Below the pieces are notes generated by a model. It searched no databases, was not told where the DNA came from, and was given only the letters and a program-made list of their open reading frames with translations. Position numbers and translations under genes: made by a program. Source: Rhodanobacter thiooxydans (GTDB lineage: Bacteria; Pseudomonadota; Gammaproteobacteria; Xanthomonadales; Rhodanobacteraceae). Taken from it: DNA of 64,000 bases. Positions within the stretch are counted from its first letter, which is position 1; each line of letters begins with the position of its first letter. This document shows, in pieces, positions 10,072-19,758 of the stretch. The DNA lies in assembly GCF_030291135.1 (NCBI RefSeq), contig NZ_CP127409.1:2046001-2110000 (forward strand), in the 5' to 3' direction.

Positions 10072-10156
10072 TGCGGCGGCGTCATGTCGATCTGCACGCC
10101 CGCCGTTCGTCGGTAGCAGGAAGAGCCGCTTCCCCGACCGACTCAGGAGCACCGGC

Positions 10157-10636
10157 ATGATGAACAAGAACACGATCTGTCTCTGGTACGACGGCGCCGC
10201 GCTGGAGGCGGCGACGTTCTACGCCGCGACGTTCCCGGACAGCCGCGTGGGCGCCGCCCATCGTGCGCCGGGCGACTATCCGGCGGGCAGGCAGGGCGAC
10301 GTGCTGATGGTCGAATTCACGGTCATGGGCATCCCGTGCCTGGGCATGAATGGCGGCCCCGGCGTGCCGCACAACGAATCGTTCTCGTTTCAGGTGGCCA
10401 CCGAGGACCAGGCCGAAACCGACCGCCTGTGGAACGCGATCATCGACCACGGCGGCCAGGCCAGCGCCTGCGGCTGGTGCAAGGACAAGTGGGGCCTGTC
10501 GTGGCAGATCACCCCGCGCGCACTGATGGCAGCGGTCGCCGACCCCGACCCGGCCGTGGCAAAGCGCGCATTCGAGGCGATGATGACGATGACGAAGATC
10601 GACATCGCCGCGATCGAGGCCGCCCGGCGCGGCTGA
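10157..10636 (+). CDS. PhnB-like VOC family protein
   Basis: A 159-residue protein of the PhnB/'3-demethylubiquinone-9 3-methyltransferase' domain family (PF06983), a vicinal-oxygen-chelate fold. Diagnostic segments are CLWYDGAALEAATFYAATFPD near the start, PCLGMNGGP in the middle and DKWGLSWQITP toward the end. The domain name is historical; these proteins are not methyltransferases. Two consecutive ATGs are present after CAGGAGCACCGGC; either could be used. It stands between the phosphoesterase and a GST gene, all on the plus strand. Confidence 0.85.
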   Translation: MMNKNTICLWYDGAALEAATFYAATFPDSRVGAAHRAPGDYPAGRQGDVLMVEFTVMGIPCLGMNGGPGVPHNESFSFQVATEDQAETDRLWNAIIDHGGQASACGWCKDKWGLSWQITPRALMAAVADPDPAVAKRAFEAMMTMTKIDIAAIEAARRG

Positions 10637-10707
10637 CACACCCCGACCATTCGTGCCGGGCGCCGCCCGCGCAACGATGACGCCATGCCATCACCCGGAG
10701 TTTTCCG

Positions 10708-11361
10708 ATGTCCCCCATCATCACGGCTTTTGAAAGTTCACCCGATCGCGGCCAGGGCCTCGCGCGCGACATGCGCGTGCGCTGGGCGCTCGAGGAAGTG
10801 GGCCAGCCTTACAACGTTCGTCTTGTTTCGTTCAAGGCGATGAAGGAACCGGCGCATCGCGCGCTGCACCCGTTCGGGCAGATCCCCACCTACGAGGAAG
10901 ACGGGCTCGCCCTGTTCGAGTCCGGCGCCATCGTGCTGCACATCGCGAAGCAGCACGCGGGCCTGCTGCCGGACGAGGCGAACGCCCGGGCGCGCGCCGT
11001 CATGTGGATGTTCGCCGCGATCAACACGGTGGAACCGCCGATCCTCGAACTGCAGACCGCCAAATTCGCCGAGGGCGACAAACCCTGGACCGCCGAACGC
11101 CTGCCGCTCATCAAGCAGCGCATCCGTCACCGGCTGGACGAGCTTGCGGTTCGCCTCGGCGACGCCGACTGGCTCGACGGCGCGTTCAGCGCAGGCGACC
11201 TGATGATGATGCACACCCTCCAGCGGTTGAAGCCCTCGGGCCTGCTTGGCGACTACTCGAATCTCGCCGCCTACGTCGCCCGTGGCGAAGCAAGGCCCGC
11301 ATACAAACGTGCCTTCGCCGCCCAACTGGCGGTGTTCACCGGCAAGCCGCCGGCCGGCTGA
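10708..11361 (+). CDS. Glutathione S-transferase family protein
   Basis: A 217-residue GST with a thioredoxin-like N-terminal domain (ARDMRVRWALEEVGQPY, PFGQIPTYEEDG with the cis-Pro, LFESGAIVLHIA) and an all-helical C-terminal domain with WLDGAFSAGDLMM. It is not closely similar to the Nu-class GST at 1788. Start at 10708 follows ACCCGGAG with a spacing of about 8 bases. Substrate unknown. It is convergent with the halogenase gene, separated by 77 bp. Confidence 0.85.
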   Translation: MSPIITAFESSPDRGQGLARDMRVRWALEEVGQPYNVRLVSFKAMKEPAHRALHPFGQIPTYEEDGLALFESGAIVLHIAKQHAGLLPDEANARARAVMWMFAAINTVEPPILELQTAKFAEGDKPWTAERLPLIKQRIRHRLDELAVRLGDADWLDGAFSAGDLMMMHTLQRLKPSGLLGDYSNLAAYVARGEARPAYKRAFAAQLAVFTGKPPAG

Positions 11362-11438
11362 CAGGGTGCGCCACAGGGCCGTGGATGCGACGGGTCCACG
11401 ACACCGGGGCTCCGTCCCTTTGGCCCAGACGGCAGACC

Positions 11439-12941
11439 CTAGCGTGCGCGGCAATGGCGATCGATGTACTCGGCCTGGGTCGGCATCGTCGTCACGACCT
11501 GCTCCATCATCTGCCGCAGCTCGGCCAGCCGGCTCGGTGCGTCGATGGTGGTGCGCAGGTCCACCAGCGGGTCGTAGCGCGCGGGCCAGACTTCCTGGCC
11601 GATCATCACCGCCAGCCAGTTCGGGTTCTGGAACAGCTCCAGCGGCTCGGCCACGGTGCGGCCGCAACTGCGGAACTGGTCGAGCTTGTATTGCAGCGTG
11701 TCGGGAATCGCCATCGCGCGGCAGTCGCGCCACAGCGGGGCGTCGTCGCGCGTCGTGGCGTGGTAGTGCAGGATCAGGAAGTCGCGGATGCGCTCGTGCT
11801 CGGCATGCGTGATGCGGTTGAATTCGCGCGCGGCCAGCGGATCGAAGTCGCGGTCGGGGAACAAGGCCAGCAGGCGCGACAGCGACGACTGCACCAGGTG
11901 GATGCTGGTCGACTCCAGCGGCTCCATGAAGCCGGCCGCCAGGCCCAGCGCCACGCAGTTGCGGTTCCAGGCAAGCCGCCGCCGCCCGGTGACAAAGCGC
12001 AGCAGGCGCGGTTCCGCCAGCGCCTCGCCTTCGAGCCTGGACAGCAGCAGCGCCGTCGCCTCGTCATCACTGATGTAACGGCTGCCGTAGACCATGCCGT
12101 TGCCCATGCGATGCTGCAGCGGAATGCGCCACTGCCAGCCCGCCGCATGCGCCGTGGCGCGGGTGTACGGCACCGGCGCCTCGCCGTGCGCGCTCGGCAC
12201 GGCCACCGCGCGGTCGCACGGCAGCCACTGCTCCCAGCTCTCGTAGCCGGTCTTCAGGGCGCCCTCGATCAGCAGGCCGCGGAAACCGGAGCAGTCGATG
12301 AACAGGTCGGCCTCCAGCACCGCGCCGCCGGCCAGCGTCACCGATTCGATGAAGCCGTCCCCGCCGCGCAGCGTGACGTCCACCACCTTGCCTTCCGTGC
12401 GCACCACGCCGCGCTGTTCGGCGTAGCCGCGCAGGAAGCGCGCGTACAGGGTGGCGTCGAAGTGGTAGGCGTAGTCGAACGTGGCCTGCACGTGCTGGCG
12501 CCCGCCCGATGGCCGCTCGAACCGGCCCTTGCGCGCGGCCACCCAGGCAAGGGCGTAATCCTGCAGTGGCGTGGTATCGCCGCGGGCGCGCTCGCGCAGC
12601 CAGTACTGGTGCAGCGGCACCGCGTCGAACGACATGCCGATCTGCCCGAAGGGATGGAAATAGCGGTGCCCCAGGCTGCTCCAGTCGACGAACTCGATGC
12701 CGAGCTTGAACGTGCCCTGGGTGGCGGCGACGAACGCGTTCTCGTCGATGCCGAGGATCTGGTTGAACAACTTGATCGGCGGCAGCGTCGCCTCGCCGAC
12801 GCCGATGGTGCCGATCTCGTCGGACTCCACCACGTCGATGCGGCAGTTGCCCTGCAGCCCCCTCGCCAGCGCGGCGGCGGCCATCCAGCCAGCGGTGCCT
12901 CCTCCAACGATCACGATGCGGCGGATACGGCGGTCGGTCAT
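11439..12941 (-). CDS. Flavin-dependent tryptophan-halogenase family protein
   Basis: A 500-residue FADH2-dependent halogenase homologue. Signatures seen: the dinucleotide-binding GGGTAGW (residues 13-19), the catalytic lysine Lys79 in [11 protein letters not shown] (same position as Lys79 of PrnA), the halogenase-specific W-x-W-x-I-P motif (WQWRIP, 269-274) that blocks monooxygenase activity, and the EPLEST segment (340-345) near the catalytic Glu. So it should halogenate an aromatic substrate with FADH2, O2 and halide. The family label 'tryptophan 7-halogenase' overstates what is known; substrate is unknown. No flavin reductase, TonB receptor or SapC/cupin gene, which often accompany such enzymes, is adjacent. 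Confidence 0.9.
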
Positions 12942-13110
12942 GGCGCGAGGGCGGTGGCGGGCGGGAATGCCCTTGCATCTTTACCGGAAGCGGGGAGGCC
13001 CGCAAACCCCCGGAGCCATCGCGTCTGCCTTGCTCCGCCTTCCCGCAGAGAAAAGGGGGACGTACCCAGTCAAGCCAGTCGACCTGGCGTGCCGGCAAGG
13101 GTCACCGCCG

Positions 13111-13140
13111 GGATCCAATTTGCCACGTCCCGTTTAATTG
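13111..13140. repeat. 30-bp direct repeat, copy A
   Basis: This segment matches 14611-14640 at 26 of 30 positions (shared core GCCACGTCCCGTTTAAT); the two copies are exactly 1500 bp apart in the same orientation. The stop codon of the VOC gene (TAA on the minus strand, 13134-13136) lies inside the copy, so the repeat forms the very end of that gene and its 3' region. The origin is unknown. Confidence 0.8.
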
Positions 13141-13541
13141 GCAGGAATGGCTGCGGGGTCCATCCAGAACGGCCCCCACACATGCCCGTCGGGATCGGTC
13201 AGGTCGCGGCCGTACATGAAGCCCAGGTCCTGCACCGGATTGATGTCCGCGGTGCCGCCGTGGGCGGCGGCCGCCGCGTTCATGGCATCGACCGCCGCGC
13301 GGCTGTCCAGCGCCAGCGCCAGCGACACCTCGCTCGACGTCGCCGGGCAAATCGGGCGCTCGGTGAACGTGCGCCACTTGCCATGCGTCAGCAGCATCAC
13401 GTAGATCGCCTCGCTCCACACCATGCAGGCGGCCGTGTCGTCGGTGAACTGCGGATTGTTGGTGAAGCCCAGCGCTTCGTAGAAGGCCATCGAGGCAGCC
13501 AGGTCGGCGACTGGCAGGTTGACGAAGATCATGCGGTTCAT
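13134..13541 (-). CDS. VOC family protein (glyoxalase/bleomycin-resistance fold)
   Basis: A 135-residue single-domain VOC protein. The opening MIFVNLPVADLAASMAFYEA and the ending YGRDLTDPDGHVWGPFWMDP are typical of the PhnB-like, DNA-binding-free glyoxalase/dioxygenase-related subfamily. The start at 13541 was chosen for the conserved opening; the frame remains open for another 138 codons upstream through repeat-rich DNA with no coding look. The last codons and stop fall in the 30-bp repeat at 13111-13140. Substrate unknown. Confidence 0.8.
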   Translation of the reverse strand: MNRMIFVNLPVADLAASMAFYEALGFTNNPQFTDDTAACMVWSEAIYVMLLTHGKWRTFTERPICPATSSEVSLALALDSRAAVDAMNAAAAAHGGTADINPVQDLGFMYGRDLTDPDGHVWGPFWMDPAAIPAN

Positions 13542-14040
13542 GGCGATTCCATTTCGGTGAGGTGCCCATGCAACGAACGGCGAGGCTGGAAATCGACAAG
13601 TTACGCAGCTATCCGGAACGGGTTCCGGAGACCTTCCCGCCGCTTCCCGACGGGAGGAAGTGAACCGGGCACCGTTGCCCTCATCGGGCATGCGTTGCCC
13701 TGACCTTAATTGACGCGCCCGAAAAAGCCGGGCCACCTCAACCTGACCCTGTTTTTTGCCCTTGAAAATTGTCCCTGACACCTTTACGGTTCTGGGCTCA
13801 CCGCCGCCCTCACCGGGGCGCCTTCGACCGTTCTCCAGCCGATCACCAGGAGAAAACGCCCAAGCGCGAAGGCCGCAGGCTTGCACGCAAACCAACAACC
13901 CTGAAGCGCAAGGTTCGAAGCATTGGACCGCGAGGGTCATCCACCTCGCACGCAAGGTTCAAACCCTCGTGCGCAACGATTCGACGGAGCGGTCGGCGTT
14001 TCGGACGGCCCACGCGGCACGGATGCGCCGGCACCGGACG
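13542..14040. other. Intergenic patch with short dispersed repeat modules
   Basis: About 500 bases without a supportable gene. It contains a palindrome CCGGAAC-GG-GTTCCGG (about 13613-13628), a hairpin of the GCGCCCGAAAAAGCCGGGC type near 13713 that also follows the GFA gene near 9240, the module CAACCTGACCCTGTTTTTT (from 13739) and the module GTCCCTGACACCTTT (13771-13785). The last two recur in altered form at 14494-14525 and 14566-14580. Several frames are open, but none has a ribosome-binding site with family resemblance. Confidence 0.6.
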
Positions 14041-14376
14041 TCACGTCTCGTCGGTGCAGGGTTCCGGCACTACGCCCGGTGCCACCGTCATCACGTCCTG
14101 CCAGGCCGGGTTCTTCAGATAACGCGCACGGACGTAGGGGCAGAACGGAATGATCCGGAAGCCCTGCCCGCGCGCGTCGGCGATCAGCCGATCGACCAGC
14201 GCCGACGCCGCGCCGGTGCCCTTCAGGCTCTCCGGGGACAAGGTGTGGTCCGCGCTGATCAGCCCCGGCCCGCGATGCGTGAAAACCAGTTCGGCTTCGG
14301 CCTCGATACCGGTCACCGTTGCGACATAGCGGCCATGCCGGCCATGTTCTTCCCGGGTGATGTGAACGTCAGTCAT
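14041..14376 (-). CDS. Small GNAT-like N-acetyltransferase (YjdJ type)
   Basis: A 111-residue minimal acetyltransferase of the GCN5-related N-acyltransferase type (PF14542). Visible: HGRYVATVTGIEAEAELVFT, then ISADHTLSPESLKGTGAAS with the acetyl-CoA loop, LVDRLIADARGQGFRIIPFC, and the family ending PYVRARYLKNP. The start at 14376 follows CAGGAG with 8 bases spacing; the longer open frame to 14709 runs through repeats. It sits alone inside the repeat-bounded patch. Confidence 0.8.
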   Translation of the reverse strand: MTDVHITREEHGRHGRYVATVTGIEAEAELVFTHRGPGLISADHTLSPESLKGTGAASALVDRLIADARGQGFRIIPFCPYVRARYLKNPAWQDVMTVAPGVVPEPCTDET

Positions 14377-14812
14377 GGCTCGACTCCTGGGCTTGAACCC
14401 GTGGGGATGGCAGCAGTGTGCCATGCGCACGCTGGTCGGCCACCGACGTGCCGCCGCTGGCGCGCCCAACGGGCCAGTCGAATTTTCCAGGGCCCAGGAA
14501 GTGAACCTGATCTGGCCCCGTTTTTGAGCACCGTGAACACGCCGAAAATGTCCCTGCCAAAAAAAGTCCCTGACACCTCTTTCTGCAGTCTTCGCCCTGG
14601 TTTCGCCCATGGATTTAATTCGCCACGTCCCGTTTAATCGTTTAATCTGAACGGTGACTGGCGCGATCTTGGCGCCGCATGAAACATAGCGGCTGGTGGT
14701 CAACGACAAAACGGGCGCCTACTCCTGGCGATCACCGGGGAAGAGCAAGTGCGGGCCTATTGACTACGGATGGCGAAATGGTGACCTCTGTTTTTTTTAA
14801 ATTATATACGAG
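14377..14812. other. Repeat-rich junction into the AT-rich segment
   Basis: About 436 bases without a supportable gene. Left part (14460-14590) carries GCGCGCCCAACGGGCCAG, a CCTGATCTGGCCCCGTTTTTG module and GTCCCTGACACCTCT (14566-14580), echoes of 13710-13785. The 30-bp repeat copy B (14611-14640) is followed by a tandem GTTTAATC. From about 14770 the base composition falls sharply (TTTTTTTTAAATTATATA at 14791-14808), marking the boundary of the AT-rich segment. Confidence 0.6.
14611..14640. repeat. 30-bp direct repeat, copy B
   Basis: Second copy of the repeat at 13111-13140: 26 of 30 bases identical, same orientation, offset exactly 1500 bp. It marks the right edge of the patch that holds the VOC and small GNAT genes and lies about 150 bases before the composition drop. 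Confidence 0.8.
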
Positions 14813-15427
14813 TCAGTCGCCCCTATTTCTGATCTTGTCGATAGATATTCTGACGCCGATAAAGCTACTCGCCATGAAGCGCCGAACCCGGGGTATGAGC
14901 GTGACTTCTTGTTGTGAGACGCGTTCAATCATCCGAGCCACCTCAGCGCGCTGCTTGGACGTCAAGTCTTCCAAGCCTCCGCTACGCCCCAATTCCTCAC
15001 GAATTCTCTGGCGATTCGCGCGGGCCAATCGGCCTTGCTCATACTGGTTGTACGCCGAAGAAACCGAAAGCACTGCACTTGGAAGGTACTTCAGCACTAA
15101 CCACATAATCACGAGCGGGGAGGAGTTGGTGGCGACGCCGAGCGCCTCCCGGGCTATTAGCTCCCACGAGCCTTGCTGACATTTAGCAAACTTGAAGTGT
15201 CCAGTCTGGCGACGAGAGTAAGAACGAAAGTCCTTATGTGATCGACCGTATATACGATCAATAAATTCTAAAAACGCCGCAAAATCTCTTGCGACAATAT
15301 TTTCTGCTGAGATGCTCACAATAAGGTGCAAATAAGCGTCGCTGGAAACCTCATCAATCTCGGGCAAGACACTCTTCGTAATAGCACGAACCGAGGAATG
15401 AGAGATAGCAATGAGCTGACCAGTCAT
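14813..15427 (-). CDS. Uncharacterised protein with one hydrophobic segment
   Basis: A 204-residue protein I do not recognise. Residues about 35-95 look like an alpha/beta domain (YLHLIVSISAENIVARDFAA, then FKFAKCQQGSWELIAREAL). A hydrophobic stretch follows at about 101-121 (SPLVIMWLVLKYLPSAVLSV), then a charged helical segment rich in Arg and Glu (YEQGRLARANRQRIREELG) that could form a coiled coil. The pattern suggests a membrane-anchored protein with soluble domains on both sides. The DNA is far more AT-rich than the window average, for example 22 of 60 G+C at 15241-15300, which points to recent transfer. It is the last gene of the minus-strand run in the segment. Confidence 0.6.
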   Translation of the reverse strand: MTGQLIAISHSSVRAITKSVLPEIDEVSSDAYLHLIVSISAENIVARDFAAFLEFIDRIYGRSHKDFRSYSRRQTGHFKFAKCQQGSWELIAREALGVATNSSPLVIMWLVLKYLPSAVLSVSSAYNQYEQGRLARANRQRIREELGRSGGLEDLTSKQRAEVARMIERVSQQEVTLIPRVRRFMASSFIGVRISIDKIRNRGD

Positions 15428-15654
15428 CTTGGCAATCCATTAGAAGATGGAAACATGACAGAGAAATGAGAGCATGTAAAAAATTGTGCAGCCGAGGCTA
15501 TGATTACACAGATGAATTCACCTTCAGGGCAAAAAGAACCTTATTCACTGAAGCGCCACGCACCGCCTGAGTAAAAACTCGCTCACCTTCACCACCGACA
15601 GCACCAACCGTAGAACTCCTTGCACGTCCTCCTAGACAAAATCCGGTTCGTTTG

Positions 15655-15682
15655 AAAACGATGGGGGCCGAAGCCCCCATCG
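15655..15682 (-). terminator. Intrinsic terminator, minus strand
   Basis: A perfect 10-bp stem (CGATGGGGGC / GCCCCCATCG) with a TTCG tetraloop on the minus strand, followed by TTTT. It lies three bases after the stop codon of the small minus-strand protein gene at 15686-15817 and should end that transcript, separating it from the uncharacterised gene at 14813. Confidence 0.8.
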
Positions 15683-15685
15683 TCC

Positions 15686-15817
15686 TTAGCAGCGAACCAA
15701 AAAGCAAAAATAGTCAGCCGTTTTCGGGTAGACCAATTTGCCGGTCCGATAGTGCTTGAAGCACTTAACGAACACCCACCGATACCCCGGTGGAGGGGGA
15801 GGACGTGACCCAGTCAT
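15686..15817 (-). CDS. Small basic aromatic protein, 43 aa (58 aa with an upstream start)
   Basis: A short frame on the minus strand: it starts MTGSRPPPPPGYRWVF, continues with the basic aromatic stretch VKCFKHYRTGKLVYPK and ends FCFLVRC. TGGAG lies 8 bases before the ATG at 15817. An in-frame ATG at 15862 would give 58 residues (MWGWLKCQGAPGAKP added), bounded upstream by a stop; it has no clear ribosome-binding site. Support for a real gene: an aromatic and basic composition unlike random frames and a strong terminator right after the stop. The family is unknown to me. Confidence 0.55.
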   Translation of the reverse strand: MTGSRPPPPPGYRWVFVKCFKHYRTGKLVYPKTADYFCFLVRC

Positions 15818-15946
15818 GGGCTTTGCTCCAGGCGCTCCTTGACACTTCAGCCATCCCCACATCAGACTTTAGTTGTTGACACCGAAGACTGAGGGAAAGG
15901 TAAAGCTCCCTTGGGGCAGCGCCAGATGCACCCCTTGGAATTCGGA

Positions 15947-15984
15947 GCCGCCTACTGCTCGAAACAGTAGGCGGCTTTTTTATT
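15947..15984 (+). terminator. Intrinsic terminator, plus strand
   Basis: An 11-bp perfect stem (GCCGCCTACTG / CAGTAGGCGGC) with a 7-base loop, then TTTTTTATT on the plus strand. No plus-strand protein gene ends here; the stop codon of the minus-strand gene at 15980 falls inside its T-tract. On the minus strand the hairpin lacks a following U-run. It therefore implies plus-strand transcription from the preceding 100-150 bases, where TTGACA hexamers occur at 15839 and 15876 without convincing -10 boxes. Confidence 0.7.
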
Positions 15985-16696
15985 GTTCATCCAAACGTTG
16001 CACCAGAACCTTTTTCACCTTCTTTAGCATCGCTTCGACGATCAGCAAGTCCTCTTCTTCAGCAACGACGATCGTAGAGTTCAGCCCAGGACCCTTGAAT
16101 GTGATCGCGTAGTCGGTGGGGCCAAGCGGCTCTACCTTGGCTGCAACCGGATTGGGGGAGACAGCAACCTGACTTTCGTCATCATCAGCGGAGCTACTTT
16201 CTGGCTCGGCTAAGTCACTTGATGATGTCATGGTAGCCAAGACGTTCCCTGCTTCGATAATTCCGGCTTGATCGGCGCCTTCCAAAAAGTACGCGCTGAC
16301 CTTAGATGCCTGATCTTGAGGAACGTCAAACTCCCTAATCAACAGCTTCCCGAAGTGCTCAACCGGTAGCGGCTTTCCCTCGAAGCGCTTGTAAATTGCA
16401 AGAAACATGGGAGGCGACAGCAACGCAGCCCGTAGAGCATTGCGCTTCTCGACGTCGTTGTACGCCAGCTTGTAATCACGGTAGACCTGTTGAACCGCCA
16501 GCCTGCCGCCTTTTGAGCTAATCAATCCATACTTGGTTGCCGCTGATATCAACGCCGTGAAAGCTCCGCCCTCTTTCCGGTTCAAGCGCTCTGCCGCCAT
16601 CAAAGCTGTACTAGAGCCACCCAAACTGCTCACGGCATCGGCAAGTTCGATGCTGTTCAATAACGAAGCTCGTGGGTAATCGACAATCTTAGGCAT
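15980..16696 (-). CDS. Uncharacterised protein, possible winged-helix N-terminus (DUF5343-like)
   Basis: A 238-residue soluble protein. Residues about 10-75 (LLNSIELADAVSSLGGSS to GLISSKGGRLAVQQVYRDY) have the rhythm of a winged helix and, with the following LRAALLSPPMFLAIYKRFEG and LIREFDVPQDQASKVSAYF, resemble DUF5343-type proteins; this match is tentative. An acidic Ser-rich linker (about 160-180) joins a short C-terminal beta domain (YAITFKGPGLNSTIVVAEEE) and a final amphipathic helix. Its promoter region carries repeated TAGCT palindromes, which would suit autorepression. Composition is more AT-rich than the flanking hutU gene. Confidence 0.6.
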   Translation of the reverse strand: MPKIVDYPRASLLNSIELADAVSSLGGSSTALMAAERLNRKEGGAFTALISAATKYGLISSKGGRLAVQQVYRDYKLAYNDVEKRNALRAALLSPPMFLAIYKRFEGKPLPVEHFGKLLIREFDVPQDQASKVSAYFLEGADQAGIIEAGNVLATMTSSSDLAEPESSSADDDESQVAVSPNPVAAKVEPLGPTDYAITFKGPGLNSTIVVAEEEDLLIVEAMLKKVKKVLVQRLDEQ

Positions 16697-16717
16697 GGCA
16701 GCGTCTCCAGTTTTATC

Positions 16718-16766
16718 TAGCTTAACTAGCTAAAAACCAGAAGTCAACTACAGCTGCTAGTAGCTA
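16718..16766 (-). promoter_or_regulatory. Promoter with TAGCT-type palindromic operators
   Basis: On the minus strand, TTGACT (16747-16742) and TAAGCT (16724-16719) are 17 bases apart and lie upstream of the gene starting at 16696. The palindrome TAGCT-TAAC-TAGCTA (16718-16732) covers the -10 region, and AGCTGCTAGTAGCT (16752-16765) sits just upstream of the -35 box. Two related palindromes flanking the promoter elements are the usual arrangement for a repressor. The binding protein is unknown; the product of the downstream gene is the obvious candidate. Confidence 0.5.
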
Positions 16767-16791
16767 ATAACGAGAGGTCACACCTTGACCG

Positions 16792-18462
16792 TTACGTCAT
16801 CGGCAACTTCAGCCCCATCTCCCTCGCACACTCCACCGCCACCTCATACCCCGCATCCGCATGCCGCATCACCCCGGTTCCCGGGTCATTCCACAACACC
16901 CGCGCAATCCGCTCATCCGCTTCCTTGGTCCCGTCGCAAACGATCACCACCCCGGAATGCTGCGAATACCCCATCCCCACCCCGCCGCCATGATGCAGCG
17001 ACACCCACGTTGCACCACCAGCCACATTCAACATCGCATTGAGCAGCGGCCAGTCGGACACCGCATCCGAGCCATCCTTCATCGCCTCGGTCTCGCGGTT
17101 CGGTGAGGCCACCGAGCCGGAATCCAGATGATCGCGACCGATCACCACCGGCGCCTTCAGCTCGCCGTTGCGCACCATTTCGTTAAACGCCAGCCCCAGC
17201 TTGTCGCGCAGACCCAGGCCGACCCAGCAGATACGCGCCGGCAATCCCTGGAAGCTGATGCGCTCTTTCGCCATATCCAGCCAGCGATGCAGGTGCTTAT
17301 CGTCGGGGATGAGTTCCTTGACCTTGGCGTCGGTCTTGTAGATGTCTTCCGGATCGCCGGACAGCGCGACCCAGCGGAACGGGCCGATGCCTCGGCAGAA
17401 CAGCGGGCGTACGTAGGCGGGGACGAAGCCGGGGAACGCGAATGCGTTTTCGCAGCCCACGTCCTTGGCCATCTGGCGGATGTTGTTGCCATAGTCGAAG
17501 GTGGGGATGCCTTGCGCGTGGAACGCGAGCATCGCGTCCACGTGGGTCTTCATCGACAGCTTGGCGGCGCGCGCGGTGCCGACCGGATCGGACTTGCGCC
17601 GCTCGAACCACTGCTCGACCGTCCAGCCCTGCGGCAGGTAGCCGTTGACCGGGTCATGCGCGCTGGTCTGGTCGGTGACGGCGTCGGGGCGCACGCCGCG
17701 GCGCACGAGTTCCGGCAGCACGTCGGCGGCGTTGCCGAGCAGCGCGATGGATTTCGCCTCGCCGGCTTCGGTGTACTTCCTGATGCGTGCCAGCGCGTCG
17801 TCGAGGTTCGTGGCCTGCTCGTCGACGTAGCGGGTCTTCAGGCGGAAGTCGATGCTCTTCTGCTGGCACTCGATGTTGAGGCTGCAGGCGCCGGCCAGTG
17901 TGGCGGCCAGCGGCTGCGCGCCGCCCATGCCACCGAGACCGGCAGTGAGGATCCAGCGTCCCTTGAGCGAGCCGTGGTAGTGCTGGCGGCCCATCTCGAC
18001 GAACGTCTCGTAGGTGCCCTGCACGATGCCCTGCGAGCCGATGTAGATCCACGAGCCGGCCGTCATCTGGCCGTACATCATCAGGCCCTTCTTATCGAGC
18101 TCGTTGAAGTGCTCCCAGGTGGCCCAGTGCGGCACCAGGTTGGAGTTCGCGATCAGCACGCGCGGCGCGTCGGCATGCGTGCGGAACACGCCGACCGGCT
18201 TGCCGGACTGCACCAGCAGGGTCTCGTCGTCGTTCAGTGCGCGAAGGGATTTCAGGATCGCGTCGAAGCACTCCCAGTTGCGCGCGGCGCGACCGATGCC
18301 GCCGTACACCACCAGCTCCGCCGGGTTCTCCGCCACCTCCGGATCGAGGTTGTTCTGCAGCATGCGGAACGGCGCCTCGCTGAGCCAGCTCTTGCAGGAA
18401 AGCTCGCTGCCGCGCGGCGCGCGGATGGTGCGGGTGGTGTCGATGCGGGTGGGTGCGTTCAT
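16792..18462 (-). CDS. hutU: Urocanate hydratase
   Basis: A 556-residue urocanase, the second enzyme of histidine degradation, converting urocanate to imidazolonepropionate with a tightly bound NAD+. Full family length, with [17 protein letters not shown] near the N-terminus, the NAD-binding [17 protein letters not shown] at about 170-186, and the conserved region [20 protein letters not shown] followed by WPLLNAMLN and [15 protein letters not shown]. The start at 18462 has GGAG 9 bases upstream; longer starts lack support. It is not next to hutH or other hut genes; hutF and hutI lie 10 and 14 kb away on different transcripts. Confidence 0.95.
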
Positions 18463-18675
18463 CACGAAGGGCTCCGGTGAGTCAGACCACCGAGTATAGG
18501 TCAGCGGCCGGCGCACCCGAACGGTGGCCCCCGGGGCTATAAGCAGGCGTCGAGCCGAATCGACAAGCCGCATGTAACGAAGTGCCGCCACAGAGCGAAG
18601 ACCTGACGGCACGGCCAGGAAACCCACCGCCGCGCCTTCCCCGATCACACGAGGCCCTGCGGCCAGGAGTCGAGC

Positions 18676-19758
18676 ATGCACGATCCCGCCCCACCCGATT
18701 CGCCGGCTCGCCGGTTCGGATCATGGACCCTGATCGCCGCAGCCGTCGCGGTCGCCGCCGTCGCGTTCGGCTACGTCGGCGGCTGGCTGGCGCCGCAGCG
18801 GCTCACGCCGGAAAAACTGGTGGACCAGTTCCAGCACAACGCCGGCACGTTCGTCGGCTACCGTCGCAACCACGCGAAGGGCGTCTGCGTGACGGGTTAT
18901 TTCGACAGCAACGGCCAGGCGCAGGCGTACTCCATGGCGCAGGTGTTCGCACCCGGGCGCACGCCGGTGGTCGGCCGCTTCGCGCTCCCCGGCAGCAATC
19001 CGTACGCGCCGGACGGCAGCGTGCCGATCCGCAGCATGGCGCTGCGCTTTGCGCTCGCGAACGGGCAGCAATGGCGCACCGGCATGAACAGCATGCCGGT
19101 ATTCCCGGTCGCCACGCCGCAGGCGTTCTTCGCGCAATTGCAGGCGCAGCAGCCTGATCCGGCCACCGGCAAAGCGGACCCGGCGAAGGTGGCCGCGTTC
19201 TTCGCCGCGCATCCGGAAACCGCCGCGTTCCGCGCCTGGGCGAAGACGGCGGAACCGTCCGCCAGCTTCGCAACCGAAAGCTACTGGAGCCTCAACGCGT
19301 TCGTGTTCGTCGACGCGAACGGCAAGCGCCAGCCGGTGCGCTGGCGCATGGTGCCGGAAGCGACTGACGCCGGCAGCGGGTTGAACAAGGCCGGCAACGC
19401 GAACTATCTGGCCACCGACCTGGCCGAACGCCTGGCGCACGGTCCGCTGCGCTGGCATCTGCAGGTCACGCTTGCGAACCCGGGCGACCCGACGAACGAC
19501 GCGACGAAGACGTGGCCGGACGACCGCCGCACGATCGACGCCGGCACCCTGGTGCTGGAACGCACCGAGCCGCAGGACAGCGGCCCCTGCCGCGACATCA
19601 ACTACGACCCGCTGGTGCTGCCGGCTGGCATCGAAGCCTCCGACGATCCGCTGCTGCCCGCGCGCTCGGCCGCGTATGCGGACTCGTACCTGCGCCGCAC
19701 CAGCGAGGAAGCCCGCCTGCCCGGCACAGCCACGCCCTCAGCGGAGATGAAACGATGA
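18676..19758 (+). CDS. Membrane-anchored catalase-family heme peroxidase
   Basis: A 360-residue protein of the small catalase-like (SrpA-type) family. A single N-terminal hydrophobic segment (about 17-38) should anchor or export it. The heme distal region reads [16 protein letters not shown] (about 61-76) with the distal His; the proximal end has a Tyr in [12 protein letters not shown] near residue 335, in the place of the heme-ligating Tyr of catalases. Its stop overlaps the start of the cytochrome b561 gene (ATGA), as in many genomes where the two form one unit; electron transfer from the quinone pool is a reasonable inference for a periplasmic peroxidase. Confidence 0.85.

Follow-up and report, generated by a model that had tools for sequence, protein, structure and literature searches.

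Directly behind the urocanase gene hutU of Rhodanobacter thiooxydans lies an AT-rich segment in which two adjacent genes, termed C and B, appear to form a compact regulatory unit. This unit may be an autoregulated, antisense-controlled module of the toxin-antitoxin-like or defense type, in which C would serve as controller and sensor, B as the actor, and a third gene, A, as an optional neighbor. We put this reading forward tentatively, at somewhat less than even confidence. The window that was analyzed is a stretch of 64,000 nucleotides (nt) from contig NZ_CP127409.1 (assembly GCF_030291135.1, positions 2,046,001-2,110,000), and the host genome comprises 3.5 Mb in one contig. All coordinates are window positions, and G and L numbers are labels of the compared genomes and loci.

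The anatomy of the C-B unit is well supported. Both genes are on the minus strand, where C (15980-16696) encodes 238 amino acids (aa) and is followed by a 162-nt intergenic leader (15818-15979) and then by B (15686-15817), a basic aromatic protein of 43 aa. An alternative start at 15862 would extend B to 58 aa, and the original prediction had allowed for 43-58 aa. The small protein is indeed present, but the shorter length is to be retained, because the ATG is conserved in a genome of another genus (G495), as is the GGAG that precedes it. This genome carries a B gene of the same type behind C in the same order, with 84% identity for B and 64% for C. On plasmid pTM3 of Tistrella mobilis, a C-like gene (hhalign probability 97.5) is followed by a B-like gene (58.7% identity) and then by an MmeI-type gene. 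The order is thereby kept in a second genus and, by distant relatives, on a plasmid from an alphaproteobacterium. C-B is taken to be the operon-like core of the segment. The transcript of B probably ends at a hairpin behind the gene (15659-15682, minus strand), which reads CGATGGGGGC-TTCG-GCCCCCATCG followed by TTTTC and was recognized by eye rather than among the sites of the terminator scan.

Over 32 codons, stop included, the core of B differs from its G495 counterpart by 15 synonymous and only 2 non-synonymous nucleotide changes, which indicates that B is under purifying selection. The protein conforms to a family whose members are 40-54 aa long, carry G[YF].W close to the N terminus, and finish with aromatic and basic residues, for example FLV[RP]. 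It matches phrog_30400 (41 aa, annotated as of unknown function) with an E value of 2.8e-6, a family that gives no hint regarding its role. Profiles of B at an E value of 0.01 recovered matches, weak ones included, in 13 of 233 genomes of the family and in 7 of 369 genomes of the class. Phage records, with weak matches at most, and viral contigs yielded no accepted relatives; pattern scans of the viral contigs returned 0 and 4 stretches, and the translations of these four are not those of B genes.

Of 20 B loci, 14 have a regulator-type gene as the immediate upstream neighbor on the same strand, comprising three genes of the C type, five pairs of a helix-turn-helix (HTH) gene and an ImmA/IrrE gene, three "SAM-like" genes, two genes of the DUF5343 type, and one HTH gene; in two further loci of the 20 the HTH and ImmA/IrrE pair is divergent. 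This count leaves out the near-duplicates As133 (of Ab129) and Ec126 (of Kp127), the remaining plasmid matches, and the weak profile matches L114, L116, L117, L118, L143, L144, and L145. B genes of the first type, to which those of G495 belong, also occur in G018 behind an HTH and ImmA/IrrE pair (HTH by reading; Peptidase_M78) and on a plasmid of P. putida, where the next gene is a patatin annotated as a CBASS phospholipase. A second type, with an end such as LDAHDYGYEAWSFLVP, follows HTH and ImmA/IrrE genes on two Acinetobacter plasmids and in G621 and G499. It stands in G080, G012, and Proteus behind a gene family that has no Pfam match and is SAM-like by reading, and E. coli and Klebsiella plasmids of 4-9 kb carry it beside a divergent HTH and ImmA/IrrE pair. 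Distant B-like genes follow a DUF5343 gene (PF17278) in G598 and, below the curated score, in G516, and a gene read as HTH in G113. Among 35 plasmid records that match one B query, 22 annotate a hypothetical protein only, 12 no gene, and 1 an unrelated gene, in a tally drawn from an incomplete gene table and including a last few matches that are weak.

The strongest hairpin of the segment (15944-15978), 14 pairs and a T-run resembling an intrinsic terminator, is located just behind the C stop codon and is directed to the plus strand, against C and B. It is the predicted 3' end of an antisense RNA. The original prediction had credited the segment with terminators of its own, and five terminator-like sites were found in 14760-16800 where 2.3 were expected (standard deviation 1.6), but the strongest of them thus faces the other way. 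The leader in which this hairpin lies is conserved, with 11-19 of 20 positions identical to G495 in each 20-nt block over the first 160 nt. Rfam gave no match across 13000-19000 at E values up to 1, and only tRNA and plasmid RNAI in 11 B loci.

A reversed terminator of this kind recurs in front of B. Within 240 nt before the gene, 9 of 13 loci have an opposite-strand terminator, where Markov sequences would give 1.7, and 1 of 13 has one on the sense strand. In a later set of seven loci that were unused in finding the pattern, the numbers are 4 of 7 (1.3 expected) and 0 of 7, and all three loci with strong B scores carry the opposite-strand terminator. Overall, it is present in 13 of 20 B loci versus 16 of 171 control genes. 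Ten of the 20 loci (3 of 7 in the later set) have a hairpin that begins 110-132 nt ahead of B, versus none of the 171 controls (Fisher p ~1e-11), a comparison that is weakened by the post hoc choice of this interval and by the relatedness of some B loci. The controls are those 171 of 183 genes that have the required 240 nt upstream, and their starts were assigned mechanically, whereas B starts were assigned by rule and by eye. Six of these controls have an opposite-strand stem of at least 10, four an opposite-strand TTGACA, and 21 a sense-strand terminator.

Two TTGACA boxes on the plus strand could provide the start of such an RNA. One (15876-15881) lies within TTGACACCG and is common to G018, Tistrella, and P. 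putida, and the other (15839-15844) is TTGACG in G495. Four of the first 13 loci, against an expectation of 0.95, have opposite-strand TTGACA, and in all four a copy lies 21-30 nt before B; the window has a second copy at 58. For the window, the simplest reading of these features is a predicted antisense RNA of ~70-110 nt over the B leader.

The N-terminal part of C is predicted to be a winged helix, and it is followed by an acidic linker and a small C-terminal tail. An AlphaFold2 model based on three sequences is confident at residues 11-150 (predicted local distance difference test, pLDDT, 81-92). Foldseek searches with this model gave weak matches (best E value 0.009; none of 712 at or below 0.001), with IdeR/DtxR first and other regulators below. 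Matches headed by IdeR fit the possible winged helix that the original prediction had pointed out.

Close relatives of C, with at least 64% identity, are present in just three of the 233 family genomes, namely our own, G495 (64%), and G505 (70%), and distant C-like N-terminal domains occur in six more. A three-sequence profile run against the 369 genomes of the class added one distant domain (G227). Two relatives come from named genomes, on contigs labeled Bacteroidia (L005, 45%) and Williamsia (L006, 38%). Significant similarity over the N-terminal 150 residues places G505, G495, L005, and L006 in the C-like family, and the Tistrella protein joins them by hhalign. The genes of L006 (JADCRZ010000013.1, labeled Williamsia sp.) look by reading like those of Bacteroidota, and the contig may belong to a mislabeled or chimeric metagenome-assembled genome. 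No C matches were found in plasmid records, and viral contigs yielded no accepted relatives of C either. A match of the C profile to a viral fusion protein (E value 7e-4) was judged to be due to chance, and matches of C-type proteins to PF09821 (E values 0.012 and 0.017) and PqqD (0.11) fall below curated scores.

Several proteins join a C-like N-terminal part to something else. In G454 it is fused to a CAP12/Pycsar TIR domain (PF10137, 2.7e-18), and in G569 and G509 it is accompanied by a nucleoside 2-deoxyribosyltransferase-like part (PF05014, E values 3e-4 and 1.2e-4, below the curated score), as it also is, by reading, in G227. The corresponding genes are L107:595-1740 for the TIR protein and L105:123-1202, L106:6732-7793, and, by reading, L108:5432-6631 for the others. 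G594 and G581 have another tail, with no Pfam match. The fusions with a TIR or deoxyribosyltransferase-like part are possibly single-gene defense proteins. C itself differs from them in having a small tail and no enzyme domain, and Pfam gave no PF10137 match for it. In G505 (L102:7148-9128), a DUF5343 gene and then a Hypoth_Ymh gene come after C, possibly a three-gene unit of its own. DUF5343 genes adjoin C in this genome and take its place before B in G598 and G516, but C itself has no PF17278 match at E values up to 5.

A putative promoter precedes C, as the original prediction had claimed in describing a palindromic promoter. Its -35 box TTGACT (16742-16747) and -10 box TAAGCT (16719-16724), both on the minus strand, are separated by 17 nt and lie 51 nt before the C ATG. 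The inverted repeat TAGCT-AGTTA-AGCTA (TAGCTAGTTAAGCTA; 16718-16732) spans the -10 box and is a putative operator. Relatives have TTGACC-N17-TAGCCT at the same offset of -51 (G495) and TTGACT-N17-TACAGT one base off, at -50 (G505). Across these three genera, an inverted repeat over the spacer and -10 box is found at a similar position and with a different sequence, in a comparison limited to three cases and to arms of 4-5 bp. Because an operator sequence that varies with its repressor is the expected pattern, C probably controls its own promoter.

Under the mechanism that we propose, C would act on the inverted repeat across the -10 box and so repress its own promoter, and the antisense RNA, starting inside the B leader and ending just behind the C stop codon, would keep B low. 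If C were inactivated or the short RNA lost, for example upon phage infection or loss of the element, then B, which is small and basic and might bind nucleic acid, would be made and would bring about cell arrest or protection. The whole would constitute a three-part toxin-antitoxin or defense module. From the anatomy of the unit we infer the toxic or protective action of B, the antisense RNA, and the binding of C to its promoter. The defense- or toxin-type layout suggested by the original prediction is accordingly plausible rather than proven, with the TIR fusion, the weak deoxyribosyltransferase-like fusions, and the placement of B behind HTH and ImmA/IrrE genes in its favor.

A number of observations weigh against this mechanism. 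Pfam, NCBIfam, and PADLOC gave no accepted match to A, B, or C, and no anti-phage defense family of PADLOC-DB 2.0.0 matches any of them at E values up to 5. Beside B in the window there is neither an ImmA/IrrE gene nor a known effector, four of the 20 B loci (P. putida, Alteromonas, G616, and G600) lack a regulator both upstream and in divergent orientation, and G505 has C with no B match. A C-terminal tail common to C, the Tistrella protein, those of G080 and Proteus, and the DUF5343 genes was considered and is unsupported (hhalign probability 0.3). The hairpin is missing under our criterion from 4 of the 13 and 3 of the 7 loci, and in three other loci it is positioned 167-175 nt before B. 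Nine of the 13 loci in the first set lack opposite-strand TTGACA, as do six of seven in the later set, whose single instance lies 56 nt before B and is equaled by one on the sense strand. The predicted antisense promoter is thus weak outside the nearest relatives of B and is not supported as a general feature. Finally, a promoter scan of the segment found two sites where 1.5 were expected, which is chance level.

Comparison with known systems helps to place the unit. In type I toxin-antitoxin systems, a small protein is held down by an antisense RNA. The C-B unit resembles them in its small B ORF (open reading frame) and in the opposite-strand terminator and, in some loci, TTGACA boxes within the 5' leader. 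It differs in that B looks by reading like a basic and aromatic protein rather than a hydrophobic peptide and that it is usually preceded by a gene of the DNA-binding type.

A second comparison is with the Xre-COG2856 pairs, composed of an HTH protein and an ImmA/IrrE metallopeptidase. These pairs were predicted by Makarova et al. (2009; PMC2701414) to be toxin-antitoxin modules and were proposed to be part of three-component or more complex circuits. B genes follow such pairs directly in G018, G621, G499, and the two Acinetobacter plasmids. The window differs in having no metallopeptidase or HTH of that kind, with C replacing the pair: A, B, and C gave no Peptidase_M78 matches, whereas this domain is present at G018, G621, and G499. 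In the loci where B follows Xre-COG2856 pairs, it is a candidate for the further component expected beside them.

These likenesses allow a broader proposal, which we consider rather doubtful at present, that B defines a widespread three-part module. It would consist of an interchangeable DNA-binding controller (winged-helix C, HTH with ImmA/IrrE, SAM-like, or DUF5343), an antisense RNA ending just behind the controller stop codon, and a nucleic acid-directed actor of 40-54 aa, and it would serve plasmid upkeep or phage defense. Neither such a B-defined module nor this particular unit or site was found in the literature searched, which mostly excludes subscription journals.

An alternative that we regard as unlikely, if still in contention, holds that B is a small regulator or cofactor of its DNA-binding neighbor, such as an anti-repressor or co-repressor, that the leader is a structured cis-regulatory RNA, and that the unit drives neighboring mobile-element genes. 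B mostly accompanies regulators rather than one enzyme, the leader shows the conservation with G495 described above, and COG2856-Xre pairs are argued by Makarova et al. (PMC2701414) to be proteolytic switches in a larger circuit. However, the T-run of the hairpin is nearly always on the opposite strand, where a sense riboregulator would not need it, and B is better conserved than C in G495. Moreover, one B gene resides on a Klebsiella plasmid of 4.1 kb, on which five genes are annotated, and there a self-maintaining module is the simpler account.

It is improbable that A, B, and C together make up one three-gene defense system with A as its membrane effector. Gene A (14813-15427, minus strand) encodes 204 aa and is probably a real gene, because an ATG-initiated ORF of at least 204 aa arose in just 5 of 2000 mononucleotide shuffles of the segment. 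The single hydrophobic helix and charged tail attributed to it by the original prediction were recovered, with one possible membrane helix at residues 105-123 (mean Kyte-Doolittle value 1.8). This putative helix, the adjacent placement of the three genes on the same strand, their similar guanine plus cytosine (G+C) contents of 51-54%, and the TIR and deoxyribosyltransferase-like fusions of C-like proteins would all suit a common system. Nonetheless, A is an orphan. At an E value of 0.001 it had no relatives in overlapping sets of 60, 369, 233, and 200 genomes, in plasmid records, or in viral contigs; weak matches with E values of 0.001-0.05 occur in 18 other genomes. Furthermore, C-B stands without A in G495 and Tistrella, and the hairpin behind B lies before A. 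A three-gene unit is therefore not upheld. The co-occurrence that was to be checked exists for B and C, whose homologs are not always unlinked, and for A no homologs were found that could show it.

A is tied to B and C by position and composition alone, and it may be either an unrelated neighbor or a locally recruited membrane effector. Its structure model is unusable (pLDDT 38). Bacterial TRADD-N membrane proteins, which have an RRM-like alpha/beta N-terminal domain, were considered as a possible group for A, for which Pfam gave no match. Matches of A to dynactin (best E value 0.004) and to a phrog transposase (E value 0.038, weak) were judged to be chance.

The segment as a whole (14781-16781) contains 51.1% G+C, compared with 68.3% for its two flanks pooled. 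In 600-base windows, G+C content is 48-57% from ~14400 to ~17100 and recovers inside hutU, and the 60 bases at 15240-15299 include 22 G+C. Both the abrupt drop, with recovery at hutU, and the three minus-strand genes thus agree with what had been noticed earlier, but the start then placed at 14640 does not: positions 14640-14770 are outside the AT-rich segment and form a repeat-like piece that has a copy in G013 (107 bp, 87%).

Horizontal acquisition of the segment, as cargo of a hypervariable site opening right behind the hutU stop codon, is supported by its deviating composition and by the restriction of close C relatives to three of 233 family genomes, while 37 of the 40 genus genomes have a match to hutU (16792-18462, minus strand; three urocanase domains), in one case a weak match of 141 bp. 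For these 37 matches, 30 loci were returned, and 28, our own included, have at least 300 bp behind hutU. When matches of at least 100 bp are counted as shared, the first 800 bp behind hutU sort the 28 genomes into 21 groups: 19 genomes, our own among them, stand alone, and the other two groups have six and three members. None of the 27 relatives, therefore, shares this sequence with the window, and the acquisition that had been proposed gains support.

One might suppose that these are decaying genes left over from horizontal transfer and without present function, and the orphan status of A and the repeats scattered through the site would be in keeping with this. The frames of B and C are intact, however, and the mostly synonymous changes in the core of B also make such decay an improbable account. 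Very improbable is a small transposable unit carrying the genes as passengers, because the 9-bp inverted repeat GTGACCTCT that flanks the AT-rich DNA on both sides stands alone and may be due to chance, its right copy doubles as part of a hairpin behind hutU, the sequences compared behind hutU in relatives open without it, no target duplication was seen, and no accepted transposase was found among the segment ORFs scanned for transposons and insertion sequences.

The cargo site spans 5.4 kb in the window, from the end of hutU, its conserved near border, to a conserved GST gene (11362-16791), compared with 8.4-19.5 kb in nine relatives in which both borders were reached. The far border consists of the GST gene (10708-11361, plus strand) and then a second conserved gene (10076-11361 for both). 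An acetyltransferase region (14009-14511, PF14542) is 97.8% identical in G032 although hutU is ~90% identical, which points to exchange of pieces within the site, and G002 and G019 have 3.2 kb of cargo in common at 95%. In G018, a second copy of the hutU 3' end (508 bp, 88%; G018:C1:232442-232949, L075) follows the first at a distance of ~2.6 kb and may reflect the way in which cargo arrives. Shorter remnants are present behind hutU in G429, G007, and G021, and the site of the window itself has only chance-level short matches (best 12 bp, E value 0.16).

Because the site varies from genome to genome, an integron-like cassette array was considered. Two types of intergenic repeat occur, at 13765-13783 and 14560-14578 and at 13111-13138 and 14611-14638. 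The first type is strongly strand-biased, with the 16-mer AAAAGGTGTCAGGGAC found 12 times in the cargo sites of eight genomes and its reverse complement not once; strand-biased 12-mers recur in as many as 10 of 29 sequences. At least eight draft relatives have contigs that stop within 4 kb behind hutU, as expected from repeats. The site also holds a gene of the tryptophan halogenase family (11442-12941; PF04820, 4.5e-196), for which blastn found no matches in the stretches fetched from relatives.

Defense-type cargo is present in this site. Among 134 ORFs taken from 20 relatives, all within 6.5 kb of the hutU end, OLD-, Gabija-, and PtuA-like ATPase families match three to four ORFs each, probably the same ones, and one N-6 DNA methylase, two TumE toxins, one rifampin ADP-ribosyltransferase, and some transposases are also found. 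Because PADLOC also matches, with one family, one of 49 control ORFs taken elsewhere in the window, we claim presence rather than enrichment. If our reading is true, the 3' end of hutU would be one more cargo site worth searching for new defense genes. One unnamed small protein would then link several orphan regulator pairs, chromosomal ones as well as those of small plasmids, and regulators of the Xre-ImmA/IrrE, DUF5343, and C types would gain a testable output.

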